64,000 bases of DNA, taken from contig NC_089273.1 in NCBI RefSeq assembly GCF_963678975.1, forward strand, positions 24,508,356 to 24,572,355. Reading direction: 5' to 3'. The number at the start of each line of letters is the position of its first letter. The stretch's first letter is position 1. The stretch comes from Dysidea avara. Its lineage: Eukaryota; Porifera; Demospongiae; Dictyoceratida; Dysideidae. The notes below the pieces were generated by a model. That model made no database searches. It saw only the letters and a program-made list of their open reading frames with translations, and was not told the DNA's origin. A program made the translations under genes and the position numbers. Below are positions 19,697 through 49,261 of the stretch, piece after piece.

Positions 19697-19952
19697 GGGG
19701 TGGTCCACAATTTTCTGCTTTTTCGCGAGCGTACAAACCGTACGCTAGGGGGTAGGGGGTAAAATCGCATGTACGCTTTTTAAAATGTCGATCACGTGAG
19801 TTGGCGAGAAATCCGAATGTAGTGATAAGGCTCTAGTAATAAACCTCTACTGCTACTTATTCAGTGTCCAATTATAAACAGTGGACTAAAGCGAGCTGAT
19901 GCTGTTAATGCATGTACCCCAGCCAAGTATAGCTAGGGTTAGCTACCAATGA

Positions 19953-23338: not shown

Positions 23339-23346
23339 ACCAATGA

Positions 23347-25445: not shown

Positions 25446-25480
25446 CTTAAATTTGTTTGCTGTACATCACATTTGCATGT

Positions 25481-25494
25481 GCTTTCGCTTGCAG
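25481..25494 (+). other. Probable 3' splice site of the giant NLR exon
   Basis: The sequence gctttcgcttgcag is a pyrimidine-rich tract ending in CAG. The open frame extends a few codons upstream only to a TTG, not an ATG. The first in-frame ATG (25671) lies past the death fold. A spliced start is therefore likelier, with the next exon base completing a split codon (phase 1). No upstream coding exon could be identified. Confidence 0.6.
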
Positions 25495-28400
25495 GTTCAA
25501 GACCTCAATTGAGGGATGTACACAACCTTGTTACACCTGACTATGCAGCCCACTGGAGAGCAATTGGTACTCAACTAGGATTGAAGATTGGGTTGCTGGA
25601 TACAACAGATCACGATCATCATCACAAAGCTGAAGATTGCTGTAATGCAGTATGGGAGCAGTGGCTTGACATGGATTCTACTGCATCATGGAGTAAGGTA
25701 ATTGAAGCGGTTGAGTCATCAGCAGTAGTGAGTGTTGTACATAAAGATGCAGTAATAGACAATTCTTCCAAAGATACTGTATCTGAACCACTTACTAATG
25801 CACGTAATCAACTACAGGAGTTTTATACCAATGAAAGATACAAAGCTTCTGAGGATGATTGGCCTTCCTATCAACCAGAGCATTTTACTAGTGTAGCACT
25901 TATTCATCATAGAGAAAAACATGTTACTACAAGAGAGGTGATTGCTATTGCTAATGTATTGCACAAAGGGGAGGTTAATGTGGGTTGTGCTTCTAATGAA
26001 AACCAACAAGGGTCATCATATTTACAATATTATGATTCTAAAATTTCTACAAACATAGCAGAGATTTTCTGCAAGTTAACATCACCCACATCACAAGGTG
26101 AGCAAAGGGTGATCTTAATTGAGGGGTCTCCTGGAATTGGTAAAACAATCTTGTCTAAGGAAATTGCTTTTCAATGGGCTAAAAATAAACTTTTGAATGA
26201 AAAACTGCTACTTTTCTTAATCTTTCTTCGTGATCCCTATTTGAAAAATGTTCAAACATTAGAGCACTTTGTTTGTTATGCTATAAGCTCTACTCAAAGA
26301 AATTCGATGGTAGCAGCAGTTGAGCAATATCTTGAAGAAACATCAGGTAAACACTGTGTGATAGTGTTTGATGGCTATGATGAAATATCTGAAGAAGTGA
26401 GATGTAATTCTTTTATTTCTAAGCTTATCAGTCGTAAAGTTTTGAAGCTTTCTAGCTTGGTAATCACGTCACGTCCAAGCACATCAGCCTATCTCCATGG
26501 CATTGCTGACCGTAGAGTAGAAATTTTAGGTTTTACTAAAGAAGACAGGAACAGATATATACATCAAAGTTTAGAAGGCAACACAGCTGAGATCAGATTA
26601 ATTGAGGAATACTTTGAGGCTAATCCCTTTATAGATAGCTTATGTTATATTCCACTAAACATGACCATTTTAATATGTCTTCTCAAAGAATCTCTAGGGA
26701 CTAGTACTAGGCTCCCAAAAACTCAAACAGAGATTAATAAGCAGTTTACTTTTGTGACAATTGCCAGATATTTAAGGAGACATCATAACCATACATTAGA
26801 TGTTAAGTTTCTTCAAAACCTTCCAAATCCTTACAAGGAACAACTTGATAATTTGGCTAAATTGGCATTTGTTTTTCTTGGTAAAGACAAGATTGTCTTT
26901 AATGATGATGATGTAGCAAATGATTGTCCTGATTGTGTTGAAAAGTGGGACAGTCTAGGTTTGTTAAAGGTTGTAAAATACTCTAATGTTCTTGAAGATT
27001 CCACAAGCTTTTCATATAACTTCCTCCACTTTTCTATCCAAGAATTTTTGGCAGCATTCTACATTGCTTCATTAAGTGATAATAAAGTGATCAAAATATT
27101 GCAAAGTGATTTCTGGAATTCAAAGTATCTTAATATGGGAATTATGTACTTTGGGTTAACCAGTGGAAATTCTTTTGCACTTAAACATTTTCTGTCCGGG
27201 AATAGATTTGTTATTGTCAGTAAGCTTTTTGGAGCTAATCGTATTGGAAGAAGGGTTGCCGAAGACAGAGTTAAATGTCTTCACTTATTTCAATGCTTCT
27301 TAGAAGCAGATAATGTTAAATTAGTGCAAAAAGTTAGTAAAGTTTTAGCAGATGATAAAATAGACTTGAGCAATTATGCTTTATTGCAGAAAGATATTCA
27401 CATTTTCAGTTTCTTTCTTATAAGATCAGCAAACAAAAAATGGGAAAGATTAGATTTATCAAGCTGCTATATTGGTGATCAAGGCTTTGAAATCTTTACC
27501 AAGTCATTCGCAGAATGCAGCAAGAATAAAACAATAATTAAGACTGTATGTATGCCTTACAATCACCTAACATCCTCTTCTATCAATGGAATTATTAACC
27601 TGATTTTCTGTTTTAAAGTAGAAAAAATGTTTTTGTGTAATAATAATATTAACTTTGAAGAGTTTGATGATAAATTATTCACACACTCTATTGCTGACAA
27701 CAGAAGCATTATGATGGTGGTTGAAAAGATGGAAGGTTGTGAACTAAGCATTTACTGTATTAATTGCAATTATATTAATCCAAAAGTAGATGTTCTGTTA
27801 TTTAAACCAAATCATTATTATTTTTGGAATGCAAATATTCGGTCATATGATATTAGCATGTTCACAAGTGGCCATTCTGTTCACCTTACATGTTTAAGTG
27901 TGTATGAAGATAGTATGAATAGCAATGAAGAAGCTGTTAGCATAGCATCATTGCTTCAACCATTATGTCAACTTGGACATTGTCATGTTGAATATGTATT
28001 ACAATCTAATAATAACTTGTTTGCTGTCAATACCAGGATAACGAAGCTTACACAGGCACTTAAGAGTGAGTATTTATTGCGACATGAATATCCGAGTAAT
28101 GCTCAATGGAAAAATGTTGACCTGTATCATAGCTCAATTGGTGATAAGGGTTTTCAAGTAATCATACCTTATTTTATAAAACAAGACCATATAATGTATT
28201 TCGATACGTTTAATATTTCACAATGTCACTTGACAGAATTATCCATTAGCACCGTACTTGATCTTCTCAATACTTGTATAATAAGAAAATTAATAATATC
28301 TGATAACTCTATTCCTAATGATTTGTTACATAAAATGATTTTAAGTGAAATCTGTGTACAAAGTAAAATACTTAATTTTACAAAACAAGTTCCATTTACC

Positions 28401-31400
28401 TCATTCAATGGTAATGAAAGAGATGTTTCAAGTAGTGGGACAGAGCTACTTTACTCTGTGACCAAATTTATAGTCAACTGTGATATTGATGATGATATTG
28501 TAACAACAGCAACAAAATTAAATGACACTTGTGTTTCTTATGAACTGTTTCTATCAAATATAGAGTTACCTAAAGAAGATACTGAAAGCATAATAGCACT
28601 GTGTAAAAATCCTTTTCTACTTATAAACATATTTCAAATGAACATATCTGATGACCTTCAAGCTAAAATTGTGTGCATGCTTCGCAACAGTAGAAAGCCT
28701 CATTACTCATATGTTCTAGCTTCAGATTCAAAGCTGATGGCATACAAAGCAAAACAGAAGAACATCACTGAAGCGTTTAACAGTAAACCAGATATTCACA
28801 CAGTAGAATTAATACAGTGTGAGTTAGATTTTTCTAAATTAAGTTTATTACACTCTACGGTTGATCGCTTTTCAAAGCATTGGAATATTATTGACTTATC
28901 AGGTTGCAGTATAGGAGACGAAGGTTGTAACACTCTTTGCAAATCGTTCTTTGAATATGTAGGTTACATTAGCACGCTAAATTTATTTAATAATAGTTTA
29001 ACTTCTGTTTCTGTGAAGTATCTTGTAAACTTATTGCAGCACAGTGTTATCGAAGAAATAATGTTAACAAACAATGCAATTTCAGAGGATGATATCTACA
29101 CATCATTGTCCATTCATTGTTGTTCAAATGACTTAATAATGAACTTCACCTGTAAAATTCCACTTCTTATTATTTTTAGTGCATCACATGTGGACAAGTC
29201 CTGCGTATATCTGGTGAAATCCTCTGTTGACTCACAAGTTTTGCAAAAAATGGTGAACAAAAGGAAACAGGTATATGATGTATTCATTGTTGATGACGTT
29301 TTGAAGAAAATTCATAATACAGTAAAATATTTCAATTCAAGCTTGAAAATCTATCCTGTACCATCAGACATCTTGAATATCTTGCAGGAAATAATCAAAG
29401 CCTTTAAAAGTATAGAAACCATTGCTACTGTTGATGTTTCCTTCCTTGAATTTACTGATGCCACATTCCATGTGCTTTGCAATGAGCTGTTTAATCCCAA
29501 GAGTGTGTTGAAGTATCTTACACAACTCAATATCTCTGGCAATAAATTGACAGGATTTTGTCTTCATTTAATTGTGGAGTGTCTTCAACATTGTGTAATT
29601 CAGCAACTAATAATTTCTCACAACTATGTTCAGAATAGAGAGATTACAGATATTATTGCAGACTATTTTTCAAATAGTAACATTTGTAATTTCAAGTTGG
29701 GAATACCACTCATGATTGTAAATAATTCATCTATAGTTGAAAGTGGCTATACTGGCACACTATTCTTTAAAAATGTCATTAAGTTTGATCATATGCATGA
29801 ACTTTTCACTGCCTATTCAGAAAGTTATGCCTTAACTGATTATAACATCTTTTTTACTCACAATGATATAATGGTTGATGATTTGAATGATTCGTTATCC
29901 GTACTTTGCAATAACTTGCCTCGTAATACAAAAATAGTCATCTATGAAACAGATGTATCAGATGAAATAGCTGAAAAAATTGTTACAATTATCACTAGAG
30001 ATTTCACTCAATGTATTGGATTTATGTTAAGCTCTAAAACAAAACTGTTGGTCCATAGTTTCTTTCACGAATGTATTATTGCAAATCTGTCTACGGTTTC
30101 ATCACTAAACACCTTACAAATAGCAAATTGTAAGTTGGAACCAGATCAACTAAAAGTTATACTTGATGTGAGTTGTAAGTGCAAACACATTAATTTATCA
30201 GGATGTCACATAGGAGATGAGGGATTAAAGGCATTCTATGATTCATTTTTGGAAAGCTCAAGTTTGCCTCATATTAGTACATTGAACATTTCGAATAACA
30301 ACCTTACATCATCTTCCATTATAGAGTTACTGGGTCACTACATTATTGAGCATTTGATAATTTCTGGTAATGATATTGATGATAATGAGTTTAATAAGGC
30401 ATTATGCTTACAATATTGGACCAGTAAAACTGTTGTAAATTTTGGATATGCTATTCCATTAGTAGTTAGTGGTACTGTGCTTGATGTTGATGAAGACATT
30501 ACTGTTTGTAATGCATATATCACTGCAACTGAGACCACAGACAAGGTTTGCTCATTGGTAGTAAATGACAGTACTCAATACTATTATATTTACTATTTGA
30601 AAAGAAGACGAAAAATAACAGTTCTTTCATTTAAAAACAAAAATATGAGCGGATTATTTGGTCAAGCTTCAGCTATCTTTTTACCCCTGTTGGCAAATAA
30701 CATAAAATTCATTTTTGAAAGAAGGTTTCAAAACAATATTGATCTCAAGTGTGATTTTGATAATAAGGTTTTTAGCACAGCTTGTATGATGATTTTTAAT
30801 AAACACAGCTTACTCAGGCATGTTAATGCATTGACTTTATCTTCTAATGAATTGTCAACAGAGTGTATGTCAAAATTTATGGACGGTCTTCAGTATTGCA
30901 GTTTTGATTACATAATTAATGAATATAACCAAGAAGAAAGTTTTGGAGACCTTCTGTTCAAGAGATGTTGTACAGCTAAGAAAACTCTCAACACCATTTT
31001 ACGAAAGCCATTAACTTTGCTTAACTATTCCAAAATGAACAGGGGTGAATTTTTAAAGCATGCTATCACTTATTTTGTTAATTATGAACAGACTGCACAA
31101 CTTACAGAAGTCATTGATTCATTACAACACAAATGTGATGTGGAAGCTCACAAGTTAATGCTGGTTAACTTTTTATCAAAGAACCAAGATCTAATTGATT
31201 TGAACCTCATTCGGTTACTTTTACAGAAGTTTGCAATGATTAATCTAATAGTATATGAGGTGGGCATCAAAGATGACACAGCATTGGCGATAATTGATGC
31301 ATTACAAGTAATACAAGAAAGAGTAGAATGTGTTTTAGCCTCCAATACAATGTTCATGGTCTACAGAACTGAAGACAATAGAATTTTACAAGCACTTACA

Positions 31401-33920
31401 AATCATTTGTTTATAGGTACATTTTTACTTAAATGCTGTGTTTTATTCACAGAAACATTTGCACTTATTGGATTTATTCTGTCTAACAAGATGAAGCATT
31501 TAAAGAGAATTACTTTATCCAAGTGCTGGCTAAGAAGTAATGATTGCAATAATGCAATACTTGATGATTTCCATTATCAAGAGTTTAGTAAGATGTTCTT
31601 CCAAGATGCTGCAACGGTACATTATTTGAAGAAACTAGACATTTCTCAAAACCACATTACATCATCTTGTGTGAACACAATTATGTCATCTTTACAATCT
31701 TGTATTGTTGAAAAACTTATCATATCTGATACTGGACTTAATGATGGACTGGTTAATTCTGTGTTTGTAGCAGGAATTCATGGAAGAAATGATATTCTTA
31801 ATTTCATTAATGGAGTACCACTGATTATTATTAACATTGCACAAGAAGATGACTACTCAACAAACAGTTTCACAGCATTTGTAGTAAAATCTGCAGTCAA
31901 TGATAACTATCTTAATCTGCTTTCAGATATTTTAGAGTATCAAGCTTATCACTACAGTTTCTTTATGTTGAACAGCAGCATAGAAAGAAAATATGTAGGT
32001 TATGCCATATCATTGCTCCAACAGTTGACTCAAAAGGTTAAAGTGTTTTCTTTGCTTGGGACTGACCTGGCAGATGAAATGGCAATTATGATCAATGAAT
32101 GTTTAAGTAAAGTATCACAAATAACTGTGGAATATATTCTTGTATCTGATACAAAAATCAAAACTAATCAATTAATGACACCATCATCAAAAAGGAGCAA
32201 TCAATTAATTGATATTGTAGGATGTAGAGTTAGTGAAGAAATGTTTGCAATATTTTGCAAATCAGTGTTTCACGAAGTTAGTCATATCACAGAACTTGAT
32301 ATTACAGCTTATCAAATTAACTCTGTTTGCGTTGATATATTGATTAATTGCCTTAAATCCTGTTCTGTAGAAATTTTAAAATTAACAAATAGTAACAACA
32401 CACTAGACATGATTACAGATGCTATGCTTGATGCATATGTTACTGAGAAGCAAATCCAAAACTTTAATTCAGGAATTTTGTTAACAGTACTTGGTCATAC
32501 TAAAGTCAATGAATGCACTGAAATTTGGGTCAACTTGTTTTGTGTAAATGTTTATGCAGATGGTGCATTTGAAAAGCAATTTGCTGATGTTCTGGTGGAT
32601 AAGAAATATGCTCGATTGCAGTGTGTGTTTATAAATTTCTTCAGTAGCACTCAAAGAATGATTCCATTTTCAAGTAAATATCTGTGTAATTTCCTAGCAA
32701 ATGACAAAAACAAAGTTTTTGTATTTGAAGTTGGCTTGCAACATGAGACAGCAACAAATATTTTAGAACAACTTGTAGCAGTGCAAGAACAAGTTCAGTA
32801 CGTCATAGTTTCACCAAAAATGTTTTTAGCTTTTAAAGTTAGTGTAAACCTAATCATTAAAGCTCTAGCTGATGTACTGCACATCCCTGTACTTACAATA
32901 CCAGCATGTACAATTTCTGCTGATGCATCAACTGATATAGAATCTGTTTTAAGTGAAACATTCAAGTATTCTAGAAGAATTTGCTTATCACAATGTGATG
33001 TTAGTGATACTAAGTACAAGCAGATTAGCGATGTTTTATTCAGTAATAAGTTTATGTTCTATCTCAAAGAGCTTGACATTTCTTGTAGCAACCTCACATC
33101 TTCTTGTATTAGTACAATTATTGACTCGCTCAAGTCTTGCATCATTGAGAAGCTGATTACAGCTGATAGTATTAATAATGAAATTAACAACTCCCTCTTT
33201 ACTTCTGCCTATTATGGAAAACAGAATATTCTTAACTTTAAAAATGGAATACCTTTGATTGTTATAAGCAGAACGTATTTAATTACAAGCGACTGTGGTG
33301 GTCACAATGATAGAATATTCACTGATAAATGTACAGATGAATGTTCAGTGCAATCAGTGTTTGTTGTGAATGCTGAAATCAACAATTTTGTCATTAAGAG
33401 AATCACAAATGTATCAGAGTACAACATTCATTCATGCAGTCTTTTTCTTTTTGCTAATAACATAATCACAATTAATTTTACTACAGTTTTATCCTTTTTT
33501 CATCAGTTTTTACCAGTAATTACAGTGTTTGGAACTAGCTTGTTAGACAGTGTAGCAGTAAAATTTTCAAGCTATCTTGAGCAAATATCTAAGACTTATA
33601 TTGAGTATTATTTCATCTCAGAGACAAAGCTACTATCAAATATGCCAAACTCTCTACCGATCTCAGGATGGTTGGCCAGTAATCCAGTGATACACCTACC
33701 TGATTGCAATGTTGGTGAAGAAATGTTCATCATGGTTTGTAAATCATTGTCTAATTATCCATCTATCATTAAAGAATTTGATATTTCATCTTATCAACTA
33801 ACCTCAAAGTGTATACAGATACTTGTCGATTCTCTACAGTACTGCTGTGTTGAGAAGATGGTAATATTTAATTATGAAAATTTACTACATGAAATGACAG
33901 ACACAATATTCAATGTTTAA
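25495..33920 (+). CDS. Giant NLR-type receptor, 5' part: death fold, NACHT, LRR supermodules (truncated by insertion)
   Basis: About 2,808 codons with no intron. An N-terminal death-like fold (25520-25735; DYAAHWRAIGTQLGLKIGLL) is followed by a NACHT NTPase. That has Walker A GSPGIGKT (26124-26147), Walker B VIVFDGYDE (26358-26384), sensor LVITSRP (26457-26477) and the helical FLHFSIQEFLAAFY segment (27021-27062). From about 27440 LRR pairs begin (WERLDLSSCYIGDQG). They alternate with ~150-residue spacer blocks carrying the recurring NFxxGIPL and GTDLADEMA-like motifs. In the family, NACHT drives ATP-dependent oligomerisation, LRRs sense or inhibit, and the death fold recruits adaptors; its partner here is unknown. 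No signal peptide or membrane span is seen, so it is probably cytosolic. The stop at 33918-33920 is made by the first bases of the inserted retroelement. The rest of the gene resumes at 40730. Confidence 0.9.
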
Positions 33921-34881
33921 CACGCATTCTGGTACTATTACCCAATCGCCCCGGTGCAGAAGTGCCGGGCACTCAAGTTGTCGCCAAAGCCTATACAGCA
34001 TGAAGCCAGCCCTGCACCTTCTGCTCCGGGGTGATACATCAGATCACACTTCAACACTGATACCTATATAGCAGCTTACGGTACCTCACCTGCGTAGTAC
34101 CACAAGTTACCTTAGGGTGATGATGGTTGACATCACGGGGAGGCGAGCACCATGCCCGCTTCTCACCACCCAACCACCCCCGAGCATCATGTAGCGGGCT
34201 GGCACTCGCCCCCCCATGGGGGGTACCTGTAACGAGAACACACGCAGCAAGGCACAGTTAACACTACACAATAGCAATACTTAAAGTACATAACCCCAAT
34301 TAGCGGTAGCTTAGCAAACGATAATTTGGGTTAGGGGCAACTGAGGGGACTGACAATAGCACACAAGCAATATAACGAGTGAACACGCATGCAGCCTGGT
34401 ATAAGCCAGTCATGCGAACACACGGTTATTAAGCGTGCAGCAACAGCATCATGATCCACGTACACACATGCAATAACACGCATGCAAATAACACGCATGC
34501 AAATAACACGCATGCAAATAACACGCATGCAAATAACACGCATGCAAATAACACGCATGCAAATAACACGCATGCAAATAACACGCATGCAAATAACACG
34601 CATGCAAATAACACGCATGCAAATAACACGCATGCAAGTAACACCCATGCAAGTAACACGCATGCAAGTAACACGCATGCAAATAACACGCATGCAAATA
34701 ACACGCATGCAAATAACACGCATGCAATAATCACGCATGCAATCATGCAAATGACAACTGCAATCACACACGCACACATTGTAAGCCAGCGCAGAGGGGT
34801 AAAGCTGTGCAGAAGTCTGAATAAGTTTTGCACTACCTCGTCAGTTAAGATAGTATGTACGTAATATCGCTACTTGCACCC
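33918..34881 (-). repeat. Split direct repeat B2
   Basis: 964 bp, matching 35221-36214 (994 bp). The 30-bp difference lies in the 15-bp minisatellite. It contains a possible stem (ccccggtgcagaag with cttctgctccgggg) near 33950-34030 and a C7-ATGG-type run near 34190. The outer end is the NLR junction. Confidence 0.93.
34470..34745. repeat. 15-bp minisatellite in B2
   Basis: About 17 units of aataacacgcatgca with a few ccatgcaagt variants near the right end. It reads through as NTHAN, MQITR or ACVLF repeats in different frames; none is a gene. Confidence 0.95.
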
Positions 34882-34942
34882 TATGCTTGCCCCTCAGTTG
34901 CCGTAAGTATGAGGTGTCATGTGAATAGGGGGAGGGAGGGTG

Positions 34943-35220
34943 GGAAAGTTTTCTAAACAGAGAGAATGTCACACTGAGACGGCGTGGTGGCTCACGAGAG
35001 ACAATGTAGCACATGATAGAATATCACACTGAGACAACGTGGCGGCTCACGAGAGACAGTGTAGCATGTGAAGATAACTCGCTAAGCTGTTTACCTATTT
35101 AGAAAGATTACATCCAGCTTGACAGCCTGTTATTCTGGTTTATTGTCTATACGCTATGTTAACAACCAGCGTGTACCAGGCATGTTAACTTCAATTTATT
35201 GGCAAGCAATAAATTATATT
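34943..35220 (-). repeat. Split direct repeat A2
   Basis: 278 bp, matching 40452-40729 with about one mismatch (cacatgat against cacgtgat). It contains two tandem ~53-bp units starting tcacactgagac and sharing ggctcacgagagaca. Confidence 0.93.
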
Positions 35221-36214
35221 TAACACGCATTCTGGTACTATTACCCAATCGCCCCGGTGCAGAAGTGCCGGGCACTCAAGTTGTCGCCAAAGCCTATACA
35301 GCATGAAGCCAGCCCTGCACCTTCTGCTCCGGGGTGATACATCAGATCACACTTCAACACTGATACCTATATAGCAGCTTACGGTACCTCACCTGCGTAG
35401 TACCACAAGTTACCTTAGGGTGATGATGGTTGACATCACGGGGAGGCGAGCACCATGCCCGCTTCTCACCACCCAACCACCCCCGAGCATCATGTAGCGG
35501 GCTGGCACTCGCCCCCCCATGGGGGGTACCTGTAACGAGAACACACGCAGCAAGGCACAGTTAACACTACACAATAGCAATACTTAAAGTACATAACCCC
35601 AATTAGCGGTAGCTTAGCAAACGATAATTTGGGTTAGGGGCAACTGAGGGGACTGACAATAGCACACAAGCAATATAACGAGTGAACACGCATGCAGCCT
35701 GGTATAAGCCAGTCATGCGAACACACGGTTATTAAGCGTGCAGCAACAGCATCATGATCCACGTACACACATGCAATAACACGCATGCAAATAACACGCA
35801 TGCAAATAACACGCATGCAAATAACACGCATGCAAATAACACGCATGCAAATAACACGCATGCAAATAACACGCATGCAAATAACACGCATGCAAATAAC
35901 ACGCATGCAAATAACACGCATGCAAATAACACGCATGCAAATAACACGCATGCAAATAACACGCATGCAAGTAACACCCATGCAAGTAACACGCATGCAA
36001 GTAACACGCATGCAAATAACACGCATGCAAATAACACGCATGCAAATAACACGCATGCAATAATCACGCATGCAATCATGCAAATGACAACTGCAATCAC
36101 ACACGCACACATTGTAAGCCAGCGCAGAGGGGTAAAGCTGTGCAGAAGTCTGAATAAGTTTTGCACTACCTCGTCAGTTAAGATAGTATGTACGTAATAT
36201 CGCTACTTGCACCC
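35221..36214 (-). repeat. Split direct repeat B1
   Basis: 994-bp copy of the B repeat immediately downstream of the recombinase gene in sense orientation. It abuts A2 at 35220/35221, recreating the circle junction. Its minisatellite (35773-36078) has two more 15-bp units than B2. Confidence 0.93.
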
Positions 36215-36348
36215 AAATTCCCCCAAAATCTCCCCAGTTGCCCCCAGCGTAGCTGCATGGAAAATACTATATTTGAACTAATGATTGAAGTAGTGACATT
36301 TGTGATGATACAATATAGTGCATGTGGAGCAATTTGTCAAGTACATTG

Positions 36349-37317
36349 TTAGGCAGCTTGACTGTCTGGTTCCCATGTTGGTTGACCAGAGGCATCTGTG
36401 CGAGACAACAGTTCATAAATCTTGGATGTTAATGATGGTTGCTGGTGGATGTAAGTGAGGTAGGCATTGCTGGACCATCGACCTAAATTTTTGATCAGCC
36501 ATGCTGGAAGTCCAGCGGCTGCTGCCGTAGTAGCTGCGCCGATCCGGAAACTGTGAGAAGCAAATTGAGAGTCATTAAGCCCGGCTTGCTGGAGGAGTTG
36601 GCGGAGCGACTTAGTGACAGCTGCACGCGTCAGAGGACGGAATCTGCCAGCTTGGTAAACAGGGGCAGTAGGGGCCACATCGCCAGAAAGCTTACGATAA
36701 CGATCAAAGGCATGCCATGGGCAAGTTGAAGAGTTGGTGTTAAAAATTTTAACTGTGCATCCACGACGAAACGGATCTGTCTTGGACTGGTGTAGGGTGA
36801 TGGTAATGTGATCGACAGAGAGCGTAACATCACACCAGCGGAGGTTAGTGTATTCACTCACCCTTAAAAAGCCATAAAAAGCCATGGTGAATGCAGCCCA
36901 TAGCATTCGTTGCTCGTGGATGGTGTAGCGTGATTGACATAGTTGCTCTTTAAGGGTATGCATGATATTCACGGTGATAGGCAAGCGGGTACGCTGGTTG
37001 TCACCTTGCAGACGTCGAATACCTCTGCATACTAGCTGTAATAGATCGCCCACAGTAGGGTCTGACATACCTTGCTCTATGTGGAATAGGCGGATGGCTG
37101 CTAAGTAGACTTTGATGGTTTTATAAGACACAAGGTTGGATTCATGAGCACAGAAGTATTGAAGTGTCAGTGATGATGCTGGAACTGAGATAAGGGTGTA
37201 CTGACTACAAAATGACTGAAACTTTGCTATTCCTGACTGATAGGTTCTTCTGGTAGATTCGGCAATACCATGATACCGGCATTGCAGGAGGCGATTGTGA
37301 AGGTTTGAGTTGGCCAT
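36349..37317 (-). CDS. DIRS-type tyrosine recombinase (integrase)
   Basis: 322 codons from an ATG at 37315-37317. It integrates the cDNA circle by site-specific strand exchange, replacing the DDE integrase of LTR elements. The N-terminal SAM-like core (YRxGIAKFQSFCSQY region) is followed by the catalytic domain: first Arg in GFLRVSEYTNLRW, then the HSFRIGAATTAAAAGL box with His and second Arg, then the LGRWSSNAYLTYIH block with the nucleophilic Tyr. All the expected R-H-R-Y residues are visible. The start overlaps the end of the RT frame by 91 nt in a different phase. No damage is seen. Confidence 0.92.
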   Translation of the reverse strand: MANSNLHNRLLQCRYHGIAESTRRTYQSGIAKFQSFCSQYTLISVPASSLTLQYFCAHESNLVSYKTIKVYLAAIRLFHIEQGMSDPTVGDLLQLVCRGIRRLQGDNQRTRLPITVNIMHTLKEQLCQSRYTIHEQRMLWAAFTMAFYGFLRVSEYTNLRWCDVTLSVDHITITLHQSKTDPFRRGCTVKIFNTNSSTCPWHAFDRYRKLSGDVAPTAPVYQAGRFRPLTRAAVTKSLRQLLQQAGLNDSQFASHSFRIGAATTAAAAGLPAWLIKNLGRWSSNAYLTYIHQQPSLTSKIYELLSRTDASGQPTWEPDSQAA

Positions 37318-39203: not shown

Positions 39204-40194
39204 GCCATAGGTCTATGTCGCGGACATCCCATCGTAACGATGGGTCGGTAGCAGCCTTGGTACGAAACTTTGCATCGTAACTAAGCCAGGCATGTAGGGG
39301 ATGATTTGTGTTTGCGGAGGTAATAATTCGCTGATAAGCGATCAAGTATGGAGCACATGAGGGGTTAAAAGATATGCGGAAAGCTAGATACACATTCCAC
39401 GCTTCCATCCATGCACCAAATGATGTTATTTTCTTGGTGTTTGCTGGGGGCTGAATGGAGACATTGTCTCCTGACTGGCTTAGCTGTAGTGTAAGAGTCT
39501 GGGACTGGGGCTCTGGTGCACCAAACATGGATTTGGGTAGAAGAGTGGTGAAGTCAATGTACTTACCTTTGGTTATCTTCTCTTGTATCCTGGTTGGGCA
39601 GGGTGGTAAAGAAGGTTGGGGGAGTGACAGGGTCTGATGGGGTGCCCTTGTTGAAGTAGAGTTGACAACTGGTGTAACGTGGGCTGGGGTGCGACTTGCT
39701 GCAATTTGCAGCGACACTGGATTGTTTGAGTGAACTGGAAGAGAGGCAGCTGACAGGCGGTCGTCCTCTATCGCTTCTGATTCATTACCAGCAGCATGCG
39801 TGTCACTAGTGCTTGCGGGCCGAGTGTCGTGGGTTGGTTGAAGGATACTGGTCAGTTGGTTAAGGAGTTGCTGTGGCAAAGCAGAGGTGACACTCCCTGG
39901 GCGGGATGGTGGATTTCCTCCTGAGTTATTAGCGGTGGTTATTTGGTGGGTATTGGTGGAGTCTTCTTGTGGGCCTTCCCCTTGTGAGCTGTTGGCGGCA
40001 TCTGTTTGCAAGTGTGAATGCAGGCGATCGATCAGAGCAGCTTTATTTCCTAGAGTTTGTAACTTGAAGTGTTTCAGATGGGATTTTAGGGCAGCCACGG
40101 TTAGAGCATTCAATTGAGTTTTTGATGCGCCGGCGAGGCTATAAGGCGTGGCGGGGCTAGTTTCCTCTGACGCGTTGCGGCGTGTTGCTGGCAT
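38875..40194 (-). CDS. Gag-like protein with SAP domain and zinc fingers
   Basis: 439 codons from an ATG at 40192-40194. Near the N terminus (40113-40009, residues 28-62) lies a SAP-like motif, LTVAALKSHLKHFKLQ then GNKAALIDRLHSHL, a helix-turn-helix that in other proteins binds DNA or chromatin. The middle is Ser/Thr/Pro/Gln-rich and probably disordered. A conserved FGAWMEAWNVYLAFR region follows. The C terminus has a CCHC knuckle (CTHCGSTTHYPNHC), a CCCH-type finger (CRDFNRSYCHRANCRFAH) and a second knuckle-like CENCGGPHSGKSC. It probably packages element RNA. The SAP domain may steer it to chromatin; that is inference. Confidence 0.85.
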   Translation of the reverse strand: MPATRRNASEETSPATPYSLAGASKTQLNALTVAALKSHLKHFKLQTLGNKAALIDRLHSHLQTDAANSSQGEGPQEDSTNTHQITTANNSGGNPPSRPGSVTSALPQQLLNQLTSILQPTHDTRPASTSDTHAAGNESEAIEDDRLSAASLPVHSNNPVSLQIAASRTPAHVTPVVNSTSTRAPHQTLSLPQPSLPPCPTRIQEKITKGKYIDFTTLLPKSMFGAPEPQSQTLTLQLSQSGDNVSIQPPANTKKITSFGAWMEAWNVYLAFRISFNPSCAPYLIAYQRIITSANTNHPLHAWLSYDAKFRTKAATDPSLRWDVRDIDLWLEHFPGTSAQPNRWPCTHCGSTTHYPNHCPFRPSPSHTHGGQHPAPPNTQQHAPAFFQQRPTPFLVNTCRDFNRSYCHRANCRFAHRCENCGGPHSGKSCPSKGQLRHF

Positions 40195-40451
40195 GGCGGT
40201 AATTACTATGAGGAAGTTAGCAAATACACATCTTAATTAACAACAACACAAACAAAAAACAAACATACGTGAATTCGGAGAGACGTGTAGAATTATCGAA
40301 ATAGAAGCTTCACTGACGGAGTCTATGTTCAAGTACTTGCTCGGCACGTACCAGTGCAGGTGACGGCGATGACTTCAGTGGGAGCGAACAAGGGGTTGAA
40401 TCACGTTTAGAACGACGTTACTGAAGTTCTCCAAATCCGGGATAGTCTCTT

Positions 40452-40729
40452 GGAAAGTTTTCTAAACAGAGAGAATGTCACACTGAGACGGCGTGGTGGC
40501 TCACGAGAGACAATGTAGCACGTGATAGAATATCACACTGAGACAACGTGGCGGCTCACGAGAGACAGTGTAGCATGTGAAGATAACTCGCTAAGCTGTT
40601 TACCTATTTAGAAAGATTACATCCAGCTTGACAGCCTGTTATTCTGGTTTATTGTCTATACGCTATGTTAACAACCAGCGTGTACCAGGCATGTTAACTT
40701 CAATTTATTGGCAAGCAATAAATTATATT
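40452..40729 (-). repeat. Split direct repeat A1
   Basis: 278-bp copy at the 5' end of the element in sense orientation, matching 34943-35220. Its outer end is the right NLR junction. The NLR frame stays open for about 34 codons back into this repeat. Confidence 0.93.
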
Positions 40730-43700
40730 TACCATGCAGGAAAGGTACTGCATAATTTCATCTCAGCTGTTCCTTTAGCAGTGATTGGCCATACTAAAGA
40801 AGATGATCATACAGAAACTTGGGTCAACTTGTATTTTGTTGATTTTGTGGCCAATGACAATTTTGAAACAATGCTTTGTGATTTCCATGCAAATGTGAAT
40901 TATTCACAATTAAACTGCTTCTTCTTAAACTTCTTTAGCAATAACCAAAGAATCATTACAATGCAAAACAAAACCCTGTGCAGTTTACTATTTAAGAATT
41001 GCACTGATATTTACATGTATGAAACAGGCCTAAAAGATGAAACTGCAAATAAAATTGTAGAACAGCTCGACACAGTAGATGCTCGAGTGAAGTATGTAGT
41101 GTTGCTAGCTTTTAGCATTGAATACTTGTCAATTGTTGATGCCCTAGTTAAAAACCCTTTTATTTTTACAATCAAATTGAAATCGGTTGAGTGCTGCAAT
41201 GAACAGGATTATTTTGGGTCAATTTTGTCTAGCAATTTCAATCATCTAAGAAATCTTGCTATAATGCGAAGTCACATTGATGATAAAAAATATGAACAAT
41301 TATGTAAATCCCTATTCACTGATAGATCTGTAATATCATACCTAAAGGAATTGGACATTTCCCACTCTAACATCTTATGCACTAATACAATAATCAAATC
41401 CTTACAATCTTGTATCATTGAAAGGTTTATTGTACCTAACTATCGCATTAATTGTGATCTTAGCAATTCTATCTTCCTCATGGCATATTATAAGGAAAAT
41501 AATATTCTTAATTTTACCATGGGAATTCCATTAATTATTATCAACAGTATCCAAGAACTCGATGAATCATCTACAAACGTGAGTTGCTTAAAAGCATTTC
41601 TTATTAACACAGCAGTCAATGAGCGTACAATCAATCTAATCACTGATGTGTCTCAATACAACATTTCTGACTACAATTTGTTTGTAAGAAATAATATGTT
41701 GTTGTGTAATTTCAATAGTGTTCTATCAGTTTTTGAACAACTTATGCAGAAAATTATACGGTTTACATTGTTTGGAACTGACTTGGCAGACAAAATGGCA
41801 TTAAAAATGGTGCAACATCTCACTACTGCAGTAAAGACTAATAGTAAATATTTTCTGGCATCAGAAACAAAAGTGTTAACTAATGTGACCAATATTAAAA
41901 CAATCTCTGGTTCCCTAGGCTATGATGATGATGATGATGCAGTTACACTTAGTGTACTAAATGAACTTACTGGAATGTTTTGCAAATCCTTGTCCTATTC
42001 AGAGAATTTGCTAAAATATATTAAATGCTTAGATTTGTCATCGCATGGACTTTTATCGACATGTGTAAAGTTAATAGTTGATTCTCTCATTTTTTGCTGT
42101 GTGGAAAAGTTGATATTAATGAATGATAACAAAGTAATGAAAAGCATAAAAAACTATATATTATGTGCGTATTTTGAAGGGAAGAGGATGTGTAACACTA
42201 TTTCAAGAATACCATTAACAATAATTGGCAAAGGTGGTATTTATTGCCAAGGAATTTCCATAAATGTATATTTAGTTGAGATTCTAGCCACTGAGGAAGT
42301 TTTAGAGAGCATTATATTGGAGGAATGGTATGACCATTTGCAATACATATTTTTAAACTCTATGCAAAATACTACTATATTACCCAGCCAAATACTTTCA
42401 CATGCTTGTATGAAACTATTCAACTCTCTTATTTTATTTGAATCAGGTCTGCAAGATGAACAGACATTAACAATTGCAGAACAGCTCAGAACACTGAATA
42501 AACAAGTTCAATACATGTTAGTCTCAAATACAATATTGTTAGCACGCAAAGCTGATATGTGGTCAATTTCAAAAGCACTGAATAATAATCCATTGATTAC
42601 TGTGGTTAAATTAACCAACTGCATAATATCCACCATTGAATTTGGTTCATTCTTTACTGCAAAGCTAAAATACTTGAAATGGTTTTCTTTAACACAATGC
42701 ACAATTTGTGGCACAACTATTAAAGACATACCTAAATGTAATACATTTTTTACCACTGGAGCAACGATACCATATTTAAAACAATTGGATCTTTCTATGT
42801 CTAACTTAGCACTAGAATGTGTCAGTATACTTACAACAGCTTTACTATCTTGTATCGTTGAAAGAATAATTCTATCTGATGATAGAATTTATGACGAACT
42901 TATACATGCTGTCTTTCTTCAGACATATTGCAAAAATGTTTACATAGTCAATTTTGTCATGGGAATTCCATTGATTATCATCAACGGTATAAAAAGGATG
43001 AAATCATTTATACATTATTTTACAATATTTTTAATGAATACTGTGCTCAATGATATAATTAACCAAATCACTGATCTTTCAGGTTACAATGTTTATGATT
43101 ACAACCTTATTCTTTTAAAGAATAATGTATTAGCGAATTTCAACAATGTTTTACCACTGTTCAAATGTTCACTTTCAAAGGTAACCAATTTCACATTGTT
43201 TGGGTCTAACTTGATGAAAGAAACAGCTGTGAAAATTGTAGCATTTCTAAATGAAATCTCTGATGTGAATATAGAGTTTTCTTTAATTTGCAAAGATACC
43301 TCACTAAATAAAACCATACATTTTGGACCAATAATGCAAACGTTAGCTAACAGCAAGCTACATAACTCTAGATTTGCTATACTGCTCTTACCATTAACTC
43401 TAGTCAGTTGTGTGGAACTATTTGACATCTCTGGGTGCAGCATAAGCAACAAGGATTTTATGACTCTGCAGGAGTTTTTGATTCAATTTCATATAACAAT
43501 TGAGATCCTAAATATTTCATATAATGAAGTGTCTCCTATAGCTCTCTCAAAAGCAATTGTGGATTTTCATATAAGAAAGTTATATCTTCATGGTGAAAGC
43601 TTTCCAGTTCAAGATACTTTAACAATGTTACTTCCCAAATTGATTAATATAAAATATAATTTAGAAATTAAATTTGCTGAATCTACTTCTTTTATTCTGT

Positions 43701-46700
43701 GCCATATACAATTTAATATCAATGACATTTTAAAGACAGCACAGAATTTGCTCCATTTATTTGTAATGAACTGCAAGCAATATGATTTTCTTGATGTCAT
43801 AGTGCCAATCCTTACCCAATTTCCACTAGATGTTTTGTCAAGTGTACATCTGTATAATAATTCTGTAAAATACCAAGATATTGTTAAAGCAGTTGATGAG
43901 CTGACACAAGTAAACTTATTTATTGAGGAAAAAGATTTTAAATTTCACAGTGCACAATCTGTTAAAAATGACTTTAGTAACATGAATAGTATTGTATACT
44001 CTACTTCAGAACATTCCAGCAATTTACAAATGCAGTGGACTCCACCGACCAAAATGAAGTTTGTCAACTTTCATTTTAAAGAGCTAACAATGATAAATGT
44101 TGGGGTAATGATCACACAGAAATTTCTTAGGGATAAATATCTGCAAAGGATTAAAATAGCAAATTTTCAGGTAACTGATGATGCTGCGAAAGTAATTGGA
44201 ACTATATTTGGCAATAGTCATAATTTGGAGCATTTGGAATTAGTTAACCTTTGCATATCTGATAACACTTTAATGACAGTATTGCAACTATTGAGAAAAC
44301 TTTACTCATTGAGGCATTTGACACTACGTTTAATCAATATGTCATCTGATAAATCAGCATGTGGTTTAGTTTATGTTATTGCAAACAACAAAAGCTTAGA
44401 ATATCTTGAGATATCTCAATGTAATTTAAAAGAGTCAGTTATTGTAGAAATAGTTGCAGCAATTAAAGATATTAAGCTACTTAAGAGATTAAATTTGAGT
44501 AACAACATTATCACCAATGTGGCAGCTAGTAAACTAGCAAGTGTATTAAACAAAACTACTACTAGTTTGACACATCTTGATTTGTCTAGTACTAAATTGC
44601 AAGAAGCAGGTATTATTGATATTACACGAGGATTAAACAATAGTAATTTGGGATATCTTTTCCTGAACAACTGCAATATTACAAGAAATGCAGCTGCTGA
44701 AATAGCCTCCTGTATAAAAGAACATTTCACATCTCTTATACATTTGGAATTATCAAATTGTAAGTTAGAGGAAGCATCACTGCTTTGTATTACTAAAGCT
44801 TTAGCTAATATGTCGTCACTATTGAAATTAAATATAAAATTTAATGCCATAACTAAAGCTGCTGCTGTTGATCTTTCAAAGGTCATAAAAAACAATTCTG
44901 AAATGACAAATTTGAAGCTCACTGTATCGGACACAAGTTTGGTTGAAGTTGCATCATCTTGTAGAACACTGTCGTCAATAAAATGCATTGATTGGAATTT
45001 TTCTTTGTTCAAGATGAATTCTAAGTATTTGGCTTCCAAATTTTGTCTTAAGGATATTATTTTCAAAATCAACATAGATGATGAATTAGATGCAGATGAT
45101 CCATATTCCTCCATTGAAAGGGATATCAAAGAAATAACACATTTAACCTTTACAAACTGTAGCTGTGCGGAAGTGTTTAATTGTATAGAATCATTATTAT
45201 CATTACAACACCTTGATGTGAACTCCAGCACAATAGCATATGATGTGATATCTAATACTATTCAGAAGAACATTGCTTTAAGCCACATAAATATTTCAAA
45301 TTGCTGTTGGCAACGATCATTTAACAAAGTTGATTGTTTTAAAACACCTAATAGTCAACCCATTTGGTATATTGAAGAAGAACTTTATGAACCACTTAAA
45401 ATGGCATTTGTTGAAGAGAAACTTTATGAACCACTTAAATTGGAGTTCGTTGAAAAGAAACTTTGTGCTAACTTTCCATGTAAAGTGAAGTATGTTGAAA
45501 AGAAACATTATAACTATCCAACTACAGTGGAATATGTTGAAGATAAACTTTACGAGGATTTACTGTTTAAAGTGGAATTTGCTGTCAATGAAGAGGAACT
45601 TTATGACTTTCCACATAAAGTGGAAAATAGTATTTACAATGACTCACCACTAGAAGATTACATGTTCTATGAAATAGCTAAGAGTTTATCATCACTTCAG
45701 CAGTTAGAGTACCTGAATATCAGTGGTAATAAAATAACGTACAGCATTGCATGTGATATAGCAACTACAATCCATAACAATAGAAGGTTACAACATCTCG
45801 ATATGTCAAACTGTCAAGCACAAACTACTGAACTTCTCATAATTTTTGAGTCTTTAGAAAATTTAAATGATTTGTCATATTTGAATTTCAGCAATAACTA
45901 TTTTTGTTTTCAAGCAAATGATGTTACTGGAAACATTAATTGTAATCTTCCTAATGTTGTAAATGCAAATGAACATCTAAATTTCCTCCTTTTATCTACT
46001 GTTGACGAATCAGGACAGCTACTTGAAAAAATTGTTCAGCCCAGCAAAGCACTGAAATATCTTGACATCAGCCACAATGCAGTTACTGATGATGCTGCAA
46101 ATAATTTATCATCCATTATCGCTGAACATGAATCACTACAATATTTGAACATGAATGGTTGCATCATAAGTAAACATGGCAATAAATGTGTTACTAAATC
46201 AATTGCAAATGTAGCTCATTTGCAATATAATATTGAATCAAATTGTTATGATGGTATCATTCATGCTGCTGTTTTCAGCAACTTCAAGCTGTTCATCTTT
46301 CTTACTTATGATAGCAAAGCTTTAAGTAGTTGCATACCTTTCAATGTTGTCAAATCAATGTATTATATCAATTTTGCATCTCAATGTCTTACCAAGGAAG
46401 TGTTGCATTCTATATCCACAGCATTCTCAACTGCAAATATAAAATCATTAACATTTATTAATTGTGACTTTGAAGAATGCAACATACTTTCAATATTACA
46501 GCTAACTAAACACATCAAGACATTGAAGTACTTTATTCTGAATTCTTTCAGAATGTCTGAAGAAGCACTTGGTGATATTGCACAAACGATTTGCAATAAT
46601 ATGAACATTAGTTATCTTGACCTGTCTGATAGCAAGCTATCAGGATCACAATTTTCCATCATTGCAAAGGCTTTGAGTAAATTGTCAGCCTTACAGTATT

Positions 46701-49261
46701 TGGATATTTCACAAAATGAGATACTTGATGAAGTTGCTTTTGAAATAGCATTTGTCATCATTAACAACACATCATTGGAATATTTAAATTTGAGTAATTG
46801 TGTCCTAAGTGATATCGGAATTCAATTTATTTGTAATTCTTCAGCACGTGCAAGTTCTCTAAGAGCTCTCAACATTAGTGGCAACCACATTACTACACAG
46901 GCTGCAAAAAACATCGCTGCTGCATTGTCCTGTTATGATGCAAAGACTATGTCTAGTAAAACATTTAGAAGCAAATTGTTCCTTCATAAGTATTCTGTAA
47001 TTGAATATCTCAATATATCTGATTGCAGCTTATCTGTATCTGATTTACTAATTGTTTTATCAGCACTAAAAAATATTAAAAGCCTAAAGTATCTTAATTT
47101 GGGTAGAAATGAGGTAGACGAGAACACTACACATGTTCTAGGAAGTTTAATACAAAATAATCATAAACTGCACAGTCTTTTTATTCCCAGTTGTGACACA
47201 TCAGGATTTTTACTTGAAAAAATTATTTCTCAGTGCACAACCCTTAAATATCTTGATATCAGTTGCAATACAATAAACAATTGTGCTGCAGATAATTTAT
47301 CATGTTTTATTTCTTCAAGATCACTGCAATGTGTAAACATAAGCCATTGTACTATGGTTGAAAGTGGCAATAAAGTGTTAATGAATACAATTGCAAATGT
47401 TGCTAATTTGCAATTAAGAGTCATACAAGATGTTTTCTTGCAAAGCATTGTAGCAGCTGTCCTAAGTGATTTTGTGCTGTTCATCTTCCTACTCAATGAT
47501 GAATGTATTCATTCAAAATGTGAAAGTTTGAGTGCCATTAAACCAATGTATTACGTCAATTTAAGCTGCATTACAATGGAGGTAAAAGATTGTGTAGCTT
47601 CAGCCTTTTTAATGACACACATTGTATACTTAAATTTTAATAATTGTGATTTAGGAGAAGACAATGCTTTTGTGATGGTACAAGCAGTGGAACATATTAA
47701 TACATTACAGTATTTGACTTTAAAGTCAAGCAGAATACACAAAGAAGCACTGGATAATATTGTGTTGATAATACTTAATAATACTGACATGAAGCATATT
47801 GACATTAGTGATTGTGAATTGTGTGGATCAGAAGTTGCTGTCATTGCTAAAGCTATCAGTAAACTGTCAGCTCTACAATTCTTGGATATATCGCGAAATG
47901 AAGTAACTGATGAAGCTGCAGTTGAAGTAGCCTCAGTCATTACTAACAATGCATCCCTGCAATATTTAAATTTAAGTGGTTGTGATATAAAGGATTTTGG
48001 CATCCATATCATTTCTGATGCTCTTGCACAAATCAAAACTCTACTGTCTTTTAACATTAGTGAAAATCATATTACTTCAAATACTGCCAAAGACGTAGCT
48101 CCTGTAGTGTCTAGTAACATTGGGTTACAAAATATCTGTTTCTCAAACTGCTTTACTGAAGATGAAACATTTATGATTGTGTCATGCATTTATAAGCAAC
48201 TAAAAACACTAAAGCATCTTAATTTAGAAGGAAATGTCATAAATGATCAAACCGCAGAAGATCTTGTTGCTTTACTTACTGTTAATGCTCTTCAATACTT
48301 GAATATCTCAAATTGCAATACATCAGATCTTGGTATGCATAAAATTTTGTCTGCCCTTGAAGATAATGAGATATTGGAATATCTTAATTTAAGCTGCAAC
48401 AAAGTAAATGGCAGGCTTACGGAAGATATAAAATCGTTCATGAAACGAGTGTGTACTTTACAGCAATTACACTTGTCTAACTGTAAATTGTCACAATTTC
48501 AAGTGATGTCATTTGTCACTGTAGCTCTTACCTCACCATGTTCTGTACAGCATCTTGATTTGAGTTTCAACTGTGAAGCAGAAATTCTGCCCATCAAGTT
48601 TAATTACACACAACAACAGCAACAGTTAATCAAAAATGATGGATTGTGTTATTTGAACTTATGCTGCTGTGGTCTGACAGATAAAGATATGTGTAATGTT
48701 CTGTCAATGTTAAGTATGTGCACTTCACTCAACTATTTGAATTTAGGTTCATGCACCATCCCTGGTGGCATATCAGTTGGGTCAGTTATTACGAATAATA
48801 AAAGCCTAAAATACCTAAATTTGTCTGACTGCGCACTACAGAAAGATGAAATCATTGTTGTCGCTAAAAGTTTGAGTGTAGCAACCTCAATTGAATGTCT
48901 CTTGCTAAGTTCTAATGTCATAACATACAGAGCAGCAAAGGAAATTTCATCAGCTATTTATAACATCCCTTCATTAAAACAGTTATCACTGTCTGATTGT
49001 GAATTGGAAGATTTAGGGTTATGTTATATTACCAATGCTTTAGAACAAATTTCATCCTTACAACAACTTGATTTAAGTTACAACATTATCAGTGATAAAG
49101 CAGCTGTTGGTATTGCATCAGCTCTTTCTAGTAATACATCACTAGAGTATCTGGACATGAGTTACTGTACTTGGCCAAATAATGGGTTAGCAATAATTCG
49201 AATGATGATAGATCATAAAAAGTTTAGAATGTTAAAAGAAGTTGACTTTACTACCCTATAG
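40730..49261 (+). CDS. Giant NLR-type receptor, 3' part: LRR supermodules then long LRR domain (separated from its 5' part)
   Basis: 2,843 codons plus stop, with no intron and no internal stop. It starts mid-module at TACCATGCAGG. The preceding host codon is the GTT at 33915-33917 and the phase is kept. The residues on the two sides of the insertion align with a sister module (FNV plus YHAGKVLHNF against LDA plus YVTEKQIQNF). Four supermodules carry the NF-GIPL-like anchor (about 40750, 41505, 42190, 42950). From about 44130 to 49261 it is mostly ribonuclease-inhibitor-type LRRs of 28-29 residues (pattern SLxYLNLSxCxLxDxG), about 50 in number. These are broken by a 19-residue acidic/aromatic repeat (45368-45655). 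A ~400-residue block is duplicated (about 45990 and 47180). Without the 5' half it has no promoter or start of its own, but its open state argues for recent separation or a second intact allele. Confidence 0.88.
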   Translation, partial: YHAGKVLHNFISAVPLAVIGHTKEDDHTETWVNLYFVDFVANDNFETMLCDFHANVNYSQLNCFFLNFFSNNQRIITMQNKTLCSLLFKNCTDIYMYETGLKDETANKIVEQLDTVDARVKYVVLLAFSIEYLSIVDALVKNPFIFTIKLKSVECCNEQDYFGSILSSNFNHLRNLAIMRSHIDDKKYEQLCKSLFTDRSVISYLKELDISHSNILCTNTIIKSLQSCIIERFIVPNYRINCDLSNSIFLMAYYKENNILNFTMGIPLIIINSIQELDESSTNVSCLKAFLINTAVNERTINLITDVSQYNISDYNLFVRNNMLLCNFNSVLSVFEQLMQKIIRFTLFGTDLADKMALKMVQHLTTAVKTNSKYFLASETKVLTNVTNIKTISGSLGYDDDDDAVTLSVLNELTGMFCKSLSYSENLLKYIKCLDLSSHGLLSTCVKLIVDSLIFCCVEKLILMNDNKVMKSIKNYILCAYFEGKRMCNTISRIPLTIIGKGGIYCQGISINVYLVEILATEEVLESIILEEWYDHLQYIFLNSMQNTTILPSQILSHACMKLFNSLILFESGLQDEQTLTIAEQLRTLNKQVQYMLVSNTILLARKADMWSISKALNNNPLITVVKLTNCIISTIEFGSFFTAKLKYLKWFSLTQCTICGTTIKDIPKCNTFFTTGATIPYLKQLDLSMSNLALECVSILTTALLSCIVERIILSDDRIYDELIHAVFLQTYCKNVYIVNFVMGIPLIIINGIKRMKSFIHYFTIFLMNTVLNDIINQITDLSGYNVYDYNLILLKNNVLANFNNVLPLFKCSLSKVTNFTLFGSNLMKETAVKIVAFLNEISDVNIEFSLICKDTSLNKTIHFGPIMQTLANSKLHNSRFAILLLPLTLVSCVELFDISGCSISNKDFMTLQEFLIQFHITIEILNISYNEVSPIALSKAIVDFHIRKLYLHGESFPVQDTLTMLLPKLINIKYNLEIKFAESTSFILCHIQFNINDILKTAQNLLHLFVMNCKQYDFLDVIVPILTQFPLDVLSSVHLYNNSVKYQDIVKAVDELTQVNLFIEEKDFKFHSAQSVKNDFSNMNSIVYSTSEHSSNLQMQWTPPTKMKFVNFHFKELTMINVGVMITQKFLRDKYLQRIKIANFQVTDDAAKVIGTIFGNSHNLEHLELVNLCISDNTLMTVLQLLRKLYSLRHLTLRLINMSSDKSACGLVYVIANNKSLEYLEISQCNLKESVIVEIVAAIKDIKLLKRLNLSNNIITNVAASKLASVLNKTTTSLTHLDLSSTKLQEAGIIDITRGLNNSNLGYLFLNNCNITRNAAAEIASCIKEHFTSLIHLELSNCKLEEASLLCITKALANMSSLLKLNIKFNAITKAAAVDLSKVIKNNSEMTNLKLTVSDTSLVEVASSCRTLSSIKCIDWNFSLFKMNSKYLASKFCLKDIIFKINIDDELDADDPYSSIERDIKEITHLTFTNCSCAEVFNCIESLLSLQHLDVNSSTIAYDVISNTIQKNIALSHINISNCCWQRSFNKVDCFKTPNSQPIWYIEEELYEPLKMAFVEEKLYEPLKLEFVEKKLCANFPCKVKYVEKKHYNYPTTVEYVEDKLYEDLLFKVEFAVNEEELYDFPHKVENSIYNDSPLEDYMFYEIAKSLSSLQQLEYLNISGNKITYSIACDIATTIHNNRRLQHLDMSNCQAQTTELLIIFESLENLNDLSYLNFSNNYFCFQANDVTGNINCNLPNVVNANEHLNFLLLSTVDESGQLLEKIVQPSKALKYLDISHNAVTDDAANNLSSIIAEHESLQYLNMNGCIISKHGNKCVTKSIANVAHLQYNIESNCYDGIIHAAVFSNFKLFIFLTYDSKALSSCIPFNVVKSMYYINFASQCLTKEVLHSISTAFSTANIKSLTFINCDFEECNILSILQLTKHIKTLKYFILNSFRMSEEALGDIAQTICNNMNISYLDLSDSKLSGSQFSIIAKALSKLSALQYLDISQNEILDEVAFEIAFVIINNTSLEYLNLSNCVLSDIGIQFICNSSARASSLRALNISGNHITTQAAKNIAAALSCYDAKTMSSKTFRSKLFLHKYSVIEYLNISDCSLSVSDLLIVLSALKNIKSLKYLNLGRNEVDENTTHVLGSLIQNNHKLHSLFIPSCDTSGFLLEKIISQCTTLKYLDISCNTINNCAADNLSCFISSRSLQCVNISHCTMVESGNKVLMNTIANVANLQLRVIQDVFLQSIVAAVLSDFVLFIFLLNDECIHSKCESLSAIKPMYYVNLSCITMEVKDCVASAFLMTHIVYLNFNNCDLGEDNAFVMVQAVEHINTLQYLTLKSSRIHKEALDNIVLIILNNTDMKHIDISDCELCGSEVAVIAKAISKLSALQFLDISRNEVTDEAAVEVASVITNNASLQYLNLSGCDIKDFGIHIISDALAQIKTLLSFNISENHITSNTAKDVAPVVSSNIGLQNICFSNCFTEDETFMIVSCIYKQLKTLKHLNLEGNVINDQTAEDLVALLTVNALQYLNISNCNTSDLGMHKILSALEDNEILEYLNLSCNKVNGRLTEDIKSFMKRVCTLQQLHLSNCKLSQFQVMSFVTVALTSPCSVQHLDLSFNCEAEILPIKFNYTQQQQQLIKNDGLCYLNLCCCGLTDKDMCNVLSMLSMCTSLNYLNLGSCTIPGGISVGSVITNNKSLKYLNLSDCALQKDEIIVVAKSLSVATSIECLLLSSNVITYRAAKEISSAIYNIPSLKQLSLSDCELEDLGLCYITNALEQISSLQQLDLSYNIISDKAAVGIASALSSNTSLEYLDMSYCTWPNNGLAIIRMMIDHKKFRMLKEVDFTTL
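45368..45655 (+). repeat. ~19-residue in-frame repeat within the LRR domain
   Basis: Five to six tandem copies of a motif like VEEKLYEPLKLEF (variants VEKKLCANFPCKVKY, VEDKLYEDLLFKVEF and EEELYDFPHKVE). It interrupts the LRR ladder with a charged, aromatic segment of about 95 residues. It is not an LRR; it may form a surface loop or linker. Function unknown. Confidence 0.85.

Follow-up and report, generated by a model that had tools for sequence, protein, structure and literature searches.

A recent Ngaro-like retrotransposon insertion probably truncates a giant NLR exon in the sponge Dysidea avara

The window analysed here, a 64,000-nucleotide stretch of the Dysidea avara assembly (G000:C2:24508356-24572355; assembly of 550.8 Mb in 108 contigs; positions below are in window numbering), contains a tyrosine-recombinase (YR) retrotransposon that runs from 33916/33919 to 40728/40731 in antisense orientation inside an open NLR exon. 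We interpret this, with a probability of about 0.92, as a recent and ordinary insertion of a Ngaro-like element that truncates a giant D. avara NLR. The element would have been copied via RNA and integrated through its own tyrosine recombinase with no duplication of the target, a mode of insertion that we infer from the kind of element, and would have landed recently, antisense, within one giant exon, where its bases end the reading frame at once with a TAA. The locus would now yield at most a truncated receptor, or none, and such a receptor would retain the nucleotide-binding core and some of the LRR modules but lack the C-terminal LRR array; the 3′ half, open yet probably untranslated, would decay unless the insertion were lost or an intact allele persisted elsewhere. 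The insertion in the window is probably a loss or truncation allele, with excision chemically conceivable, and offers a clean, recent case in which a YR retrotransposon has cut a coding exon and uninterrupted relatives serve as controls.

The 5′ part of the NLR exon (25495-33917, plus strand) lies in a frame open from 25446 to 33920. Counted from the codon at 25497, which is in phase with the acceptor, it has 2,807 codons; the last is GTT (33915-33917), and an in-frame TAA (33918-33920) from the terminal bases of the element comes next, so that this part ends without foreign residues. The same reading picks up at TAC 40730 in the 3′ part (40730-49261, plus strand) and continues for 2,843 codons to a stop at 49259-49261, in agreement with the initial annotation, which had the open frame stopping where the element starts and resuming where it ends; the two halves add up to 5,650 codons from the splice acceptor. 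Base composition predicts ~218 and ~220 stops in the 5′ and 3′ halves, respectively, and none occurs within either open run, so these frames are not due to chance. The right-hand frame in fact opens within the element, at 40595, and has an in-frame ATG (40691) that precedes the junction by 13 codons. In Pfam searches the 5′ half, which also carries LRR modules (LRR_6, E 3.6e-9), matched NACHT at E 1.2e-20 (74.4 bits, against a cut-off of 26.7), and the LRR modules and C-terminal LRR array of the 3′ half matched LRR_6 at E 1.3e-21. With NACHT above its cut-off and a C-terminal LRR array, the gene is an NLR, and its NACHT and LRR are those of the bona fide D. avara NLRs reported as numerous, some clustered and some with a Death domain (PMC12909245). 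Of the Death fold, NACHT and LRR originally proposed, the last two stand, but the first is weak by profile (E 0.073 in the window gene and 0.0018 in the D. avara relative P0041, both below cut-off; three other relatives gave no match at E 0.01), and an N-terminal Death domain is only suggested. The giant open exon was likewise recovered, but a strictly single-exon gene was not: the exon opens at an AG acceptor (25493-25494), and an in-frame ATG first occurs at 25671, inside the Death-like region; an upstream exon would therefore be required for the start. Two conserved upstream ATG-to-GT stretches were considered as 5′ exons, neither of them convincing.

A paralogue on contig C15 (G000:C15:10085123-10102030), of the same NLR family and architecture as the window gene, differs from it in having one uninterrupted frame, of 5,635 codons. 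It aligns with the 5′ half up to 10093840 (56% identity) and with the 3′ half from 10093844 (38% identity), and its DNA at the matching site does not read TTTA. Two proteins from ENA contigs, P0004 (3,873 aa) and P0128 (5,592 aa), also read across the site, and P0128 pairs with nearly the full length of both halves (57.8% and 63.8% identity). When abutted, the halves align without a gap over 119-120 residues at the site with C15 (64% identity), P0004 (75%) and P0128 (77.5%), and the sister module, for which a gap-free alignment over the join had been described, gave the same result. A cut between 33917 and 40730 was predicted to rejoin GTT and TAC in phase; it does, giving 5,650 codons, and C15, P0004 and P0128 agree with it. 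By these sequence comparisons, an NLR exon of ~5,650 codons evidently stood here before the insertion. The closest paralogue by the NACHT part (C2:24778867-24794211; 93% identity, 5,115 codons) reads through the site as well, but its modules there may not correspond to those of the window gene, given 41% identity at the site and the shorter frame. Against C15, dN/dS was 0.32 for the 5′ half (2,759 codons, dS 0.90) and 0.36 for the 3′ half (2,651 codons, dS 1.04), which points to similar purifying selection on both halves, a rough estimate with dS near 1. When five relatives were compared in 250-codon bins, P0004 or the C2 paralogue was the best match in 11/11 bins up to codon 2,750 and P0128 in 10/12 bins beyond it, a pattern that suggests mosaic evolution of the window gene.

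The length of the exon, pointed out at the start as unusual, is confirmed at ~5,650 codons, but is not peculiar to this gene. A genome search with the Death-NACHT part, in which 77 of 1,455 candidates were scored, gave 79 match rows, or 77 places after two second pieces were merged, the window's own among them. Open frames at these 77 places have a median length of 2,011 codons, with at least 3,000 codons in 16 and at least 5,000 in five (5,115, 5,635, 5,880, 6,491 and 5,806 codons), so that extreme length appears to be a trait of the NLR family in D. avara. The main text describing D. avara NLRs (PMC12909245) contains none of the terms exon, intron, amino acids or transpos, and we saw no description of single frames of 5,000-6,500 codons there. 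Our analysis draws attention to a sponge NLR family with such frames. NLR-matching open frames lie at C4:36700758 (6,491 codons), C8:8004521 (5,806 codons) and C2:24012380 (5,880 codons); the first two are NACHT-matched candidate NLRs for which full-length NLR coding is putative. To our knowledge, these three frames may be among the longest NLR exons known in animals.

At the left junction (33916-33919) flank and element have TTTA in common, and the element then continues, with its features on the minus strand, through repeat X1 (B2 in element orientation; 33920-34881), a 61-bp segment J (34882-34942) present in only the window and C4 copies among the five family copies compared, repeat Y1 (A2; 34943-35222) and repeat X2 (B1; 35223-36214). 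A 15-bp minisatellite lies in both X repeats (34462-34742 and 35765-36075). Three partly overlapping frames follow, for a tyrosine recombinase (36349-37395, 348 aa), a reverse transcriptase with RNase H (37227-39212, 661 aa) and a gag-like protein with a SAP domain (38875-40236, 453 aa), all three by Pfam, with reverse transcriptase and recombinase above cut-off but RNase H, at E 0.0013, below its own. Repeat Y2 (A1; 40452-40731), which holds ATG 40691, forms the right end of the element, with TTTA again at the right junction (40728-40731) and also at the internal repeat junction. The recombinase aligned with Cre at E about 1e-5 and keeps, opposite the residues that we take to be catalytic in Cre, R178, K205, H281, R284, W307 and Y315. 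The presence of a YR retrotransposon splitting the NLR exon is thereby corroborated by the split repeats and the minus-strand frames. Junction comparison likewise upheld the claim that no target-site duplication accompanies it: the ends have only short shared bases on each side. The GC content of the element is 0.47, compared to 0.32 for the gene.

Read on the minus strand, the order is A1-[ORFs]-B1A2B2 with split direct repeats, and from this order and the domain content the element fits a Ngaro-like assignment. Ngaro elements described in Cafeteria burkhardae have A1-[ORFs]-B1A2B2 repeats and gag, RT-RH and YR frames in about 6 kb, and are GC-rich in AT-rich DNA, at times within genes (PMC8547959); the window element resembles them, as described there, in repeat order, frames, size, GC contrast and location inside a gene, and differs in its target, a sponge NLR gene. 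The type had been given as PAT/Ngaro, of which the Ngaro part is borne out by order and frames, but not the PAT part: split direct repeats and a YR are shared with PAT elements, most of which are reported to carry a methyltransferase (PMC4157794), and Pfam found none in the three frames at E up to 0.01. Membership of PAT is accordingly disfavoured though not absolutely, because one named PAT lineage without methyltransferase is on record in that source. DIRS1-like elements, as reported (PMC3266345), have a YR, no target duplication and NTT at most ends, of which the window element shares the first two features, and the five copies compared here read NTT on the left and ATT on the right; DIRS1-like elements, in contrast, have inverted terminal repeats, and there were 0 pairs of inverted repeats of at least 30 nt within 33000-41500.

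Several comparisons indicate that the insertion is recent. Outside the minisatellite, X1 and X2 differ by 0 substitutions in 676 bases (their lengths differ by 30 bp, that is, two minisatellite units) and Y1 and Y2 by one in 280, or one substitution in 956 bases altogether, and over 4,237 bases the internal part has five mismatches and one gap relative to the C4 copy. At this age the 8.5-kb 3′ half would be expected to have gained only ~4 substitutions since the insertion, the Poisson upper bound lying below 25. With so young an insertion, little about present function can be read from the open 3′ half, and its openness together with the similar dN/dS would speak for function before the insertion and not now; testing function by whether the 3′ half has decayed has no power at this age and was set aside.

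A segregating insertion, carried by some haplotypes and not by others without any excision, so that intact and truncated alleles coexist, is compatible with a recent truncating insertion and, in our judgement, somewhat probable. It is favoured by the very recent insertion, by the intact 3′ half and by the reported variation of NLR copy number between zebrafish individuals (PMC11192531). The analysis covered one haplotype. Two D. avara assemblies are on record (PMC12909245). In the assembly, the left flank (118 bases) matched its own place and C15 at 78%, and the right flank (600 residues) its own place with the next best match at 52%, without a near-identical second copy of either, and none of 11 database proteins joins the window's own two halves. 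P0003, on another contig (106,232 bases), repeats the 5′ half except its first residue and ends at the same residue. Paralogues P0130, P0131 and P0005 are 100%, 100% and 99.93% identical to the window assembly, respectively; given such identities, contigs of the P0003 type probably come from the same animal, and are thus silent on other individuals.

Two genes might instead now occupy the locus, the 5′ half working as a truncated NLR and the 3′ half encoding a separate LRR protein started from the element's own ATG 40691, which we regard as improbable. This ATG is in frame ahead of the junction with the frame open through it, so that the 3′ half could be translated from there or after cryptic splicing, and the genome has many shorter NLR frames. 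The element is nevertheless antisense, a promoter for the 3′ half is purely hypothetical, and the insertion is too recent for selection to show. Among database proteins of 0.55 to 1.75 times the query length, the 5′ half was found and the 3′ half as a separate protein was not. Removal of the element as an intron was also considered, and the left-junction GT with CAG at 40737-40739, the pair examined by eye, would shift the frame.

Even less probable is a switch, in which precise excision by the Cre-like recombinase between the two terminal cores of the element would restore the giant receptor in certain cells or individuals and make it a phase-variable or presence/absence allele. In the alignment with Cre the recombinase retains its putative catalytic residues, the two halves abut in phase, and TTTA at both ends makes an empty site unambiguous, so that excision here would be detectable as one exact junction and the clean departure of such elements becomes testable. 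The shared TTTA core initially proposed does hold for both window ends, but not for the family: the junctions of the five copies agree in T or TT alone, so that TTTA is not a fixed family core and its occurrence in the window is partly coincidence with the target; so short a core is in line with what is reported for DIRS1-like elements, mostly NTT-ended (PMC3266345). Moreover, each end would offer only half of the repeat junction presented to the recombinase by a circular form, and so recent an insertion makes it unlikely that selection has shaped a switch over time. In a genome search with the Y repeat (40 of 107 candidates scored, 41 matches listed), seven of the 41 matches were at least 98% identical, all within the five copies that hold the internal part (two each in the window and on C4, and one each on C7, C13 and C1). 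Solo repeats of the window family, comparable to the solo AB repeats reported for Ngaro (PMC8547959), were absent among the 40 of 107 candidates scored, where weak ones may escape. Three of the five copies, which stand further from the window copy (31-52 internal-part mismatches), lack X1-J-Y1 (C7:19294100-19299699, C13:13884006-13889319 and C1:24161662-24167055), as expected from recombination between two cores; this loss is no evidence for the recombinase, however, because homologous recombination between X repeats yields the same product, as would insertion of a shorter circle. The family copies thus show loss of a repeat unit instead of clean excision, of which they bear no trace. Neither the assembly nor the 11 database proteins include an empty copy of the gene, and the suggestion in the initial annotation of a presence/absence allele or reversible switch found no result in its favour. 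If a switch did operate, restoration of a ~5,650-codon receptor could underlie differences between individual sponges in the recognition of self and non-self or of microbes.

Least probable of all is an assembly artefact joining two unrelated half-genes at a repeat, for although the near-identical element copy on C4 could mislead assembly, the halves abut without a gap against three uninterrupted relatives and both partner one protein, P0128, the grounds on which such a join was set aside, the flanks have near-identical matches in place alone, and P0003 on its separate contig ends at the same residue.

Returning to the recent truncating insertion, we found no sign that elements of this kind habitually reside in NLR genes, because nesting was seen at the window alone when the 77 NLR places were compared with 111 YR places (from a search for recombinase relatives with 116 of 1,227 candidates scored and 122 match rows, 11 second pieces being left out). 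Four pairs lie within 50 kb: the window pair, the only one known with a YR between two parts of a frame, two with the YR upstream of the NLR match, and one on C11 with the YR 44 kb downstream of an 838-codon frame. A degraded recombinase relative and an NLR match that has one in-frame stop were seen ~7.5 kb apart (C2:12053791 and C2:12061275). In the open-licence literature, mostly at the level of titles and abstracts, we found no report of Ngaro-like or other YR elements in sponge NLRs, nor of clean Ngaro excision.

Other repeats surround the gene. In the presumed first intron, ~5.5 kb (19172-24687) with large inverted repeats (19947-23345) are missing in the C2:24778867 paralogue, whose upstream DNA matches the window at 17.7-19.2 kb. 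A foldback element (24731-25445) with 174-nt arms of a 21-bp repeat, also absent from that paralogue, ends ~50 bp before the acceptor of the giant exon. Downstream of the gene, 31/61-bp units form a long, degenerate and strongly AT-skewed tandem array from 54187 to 57084.
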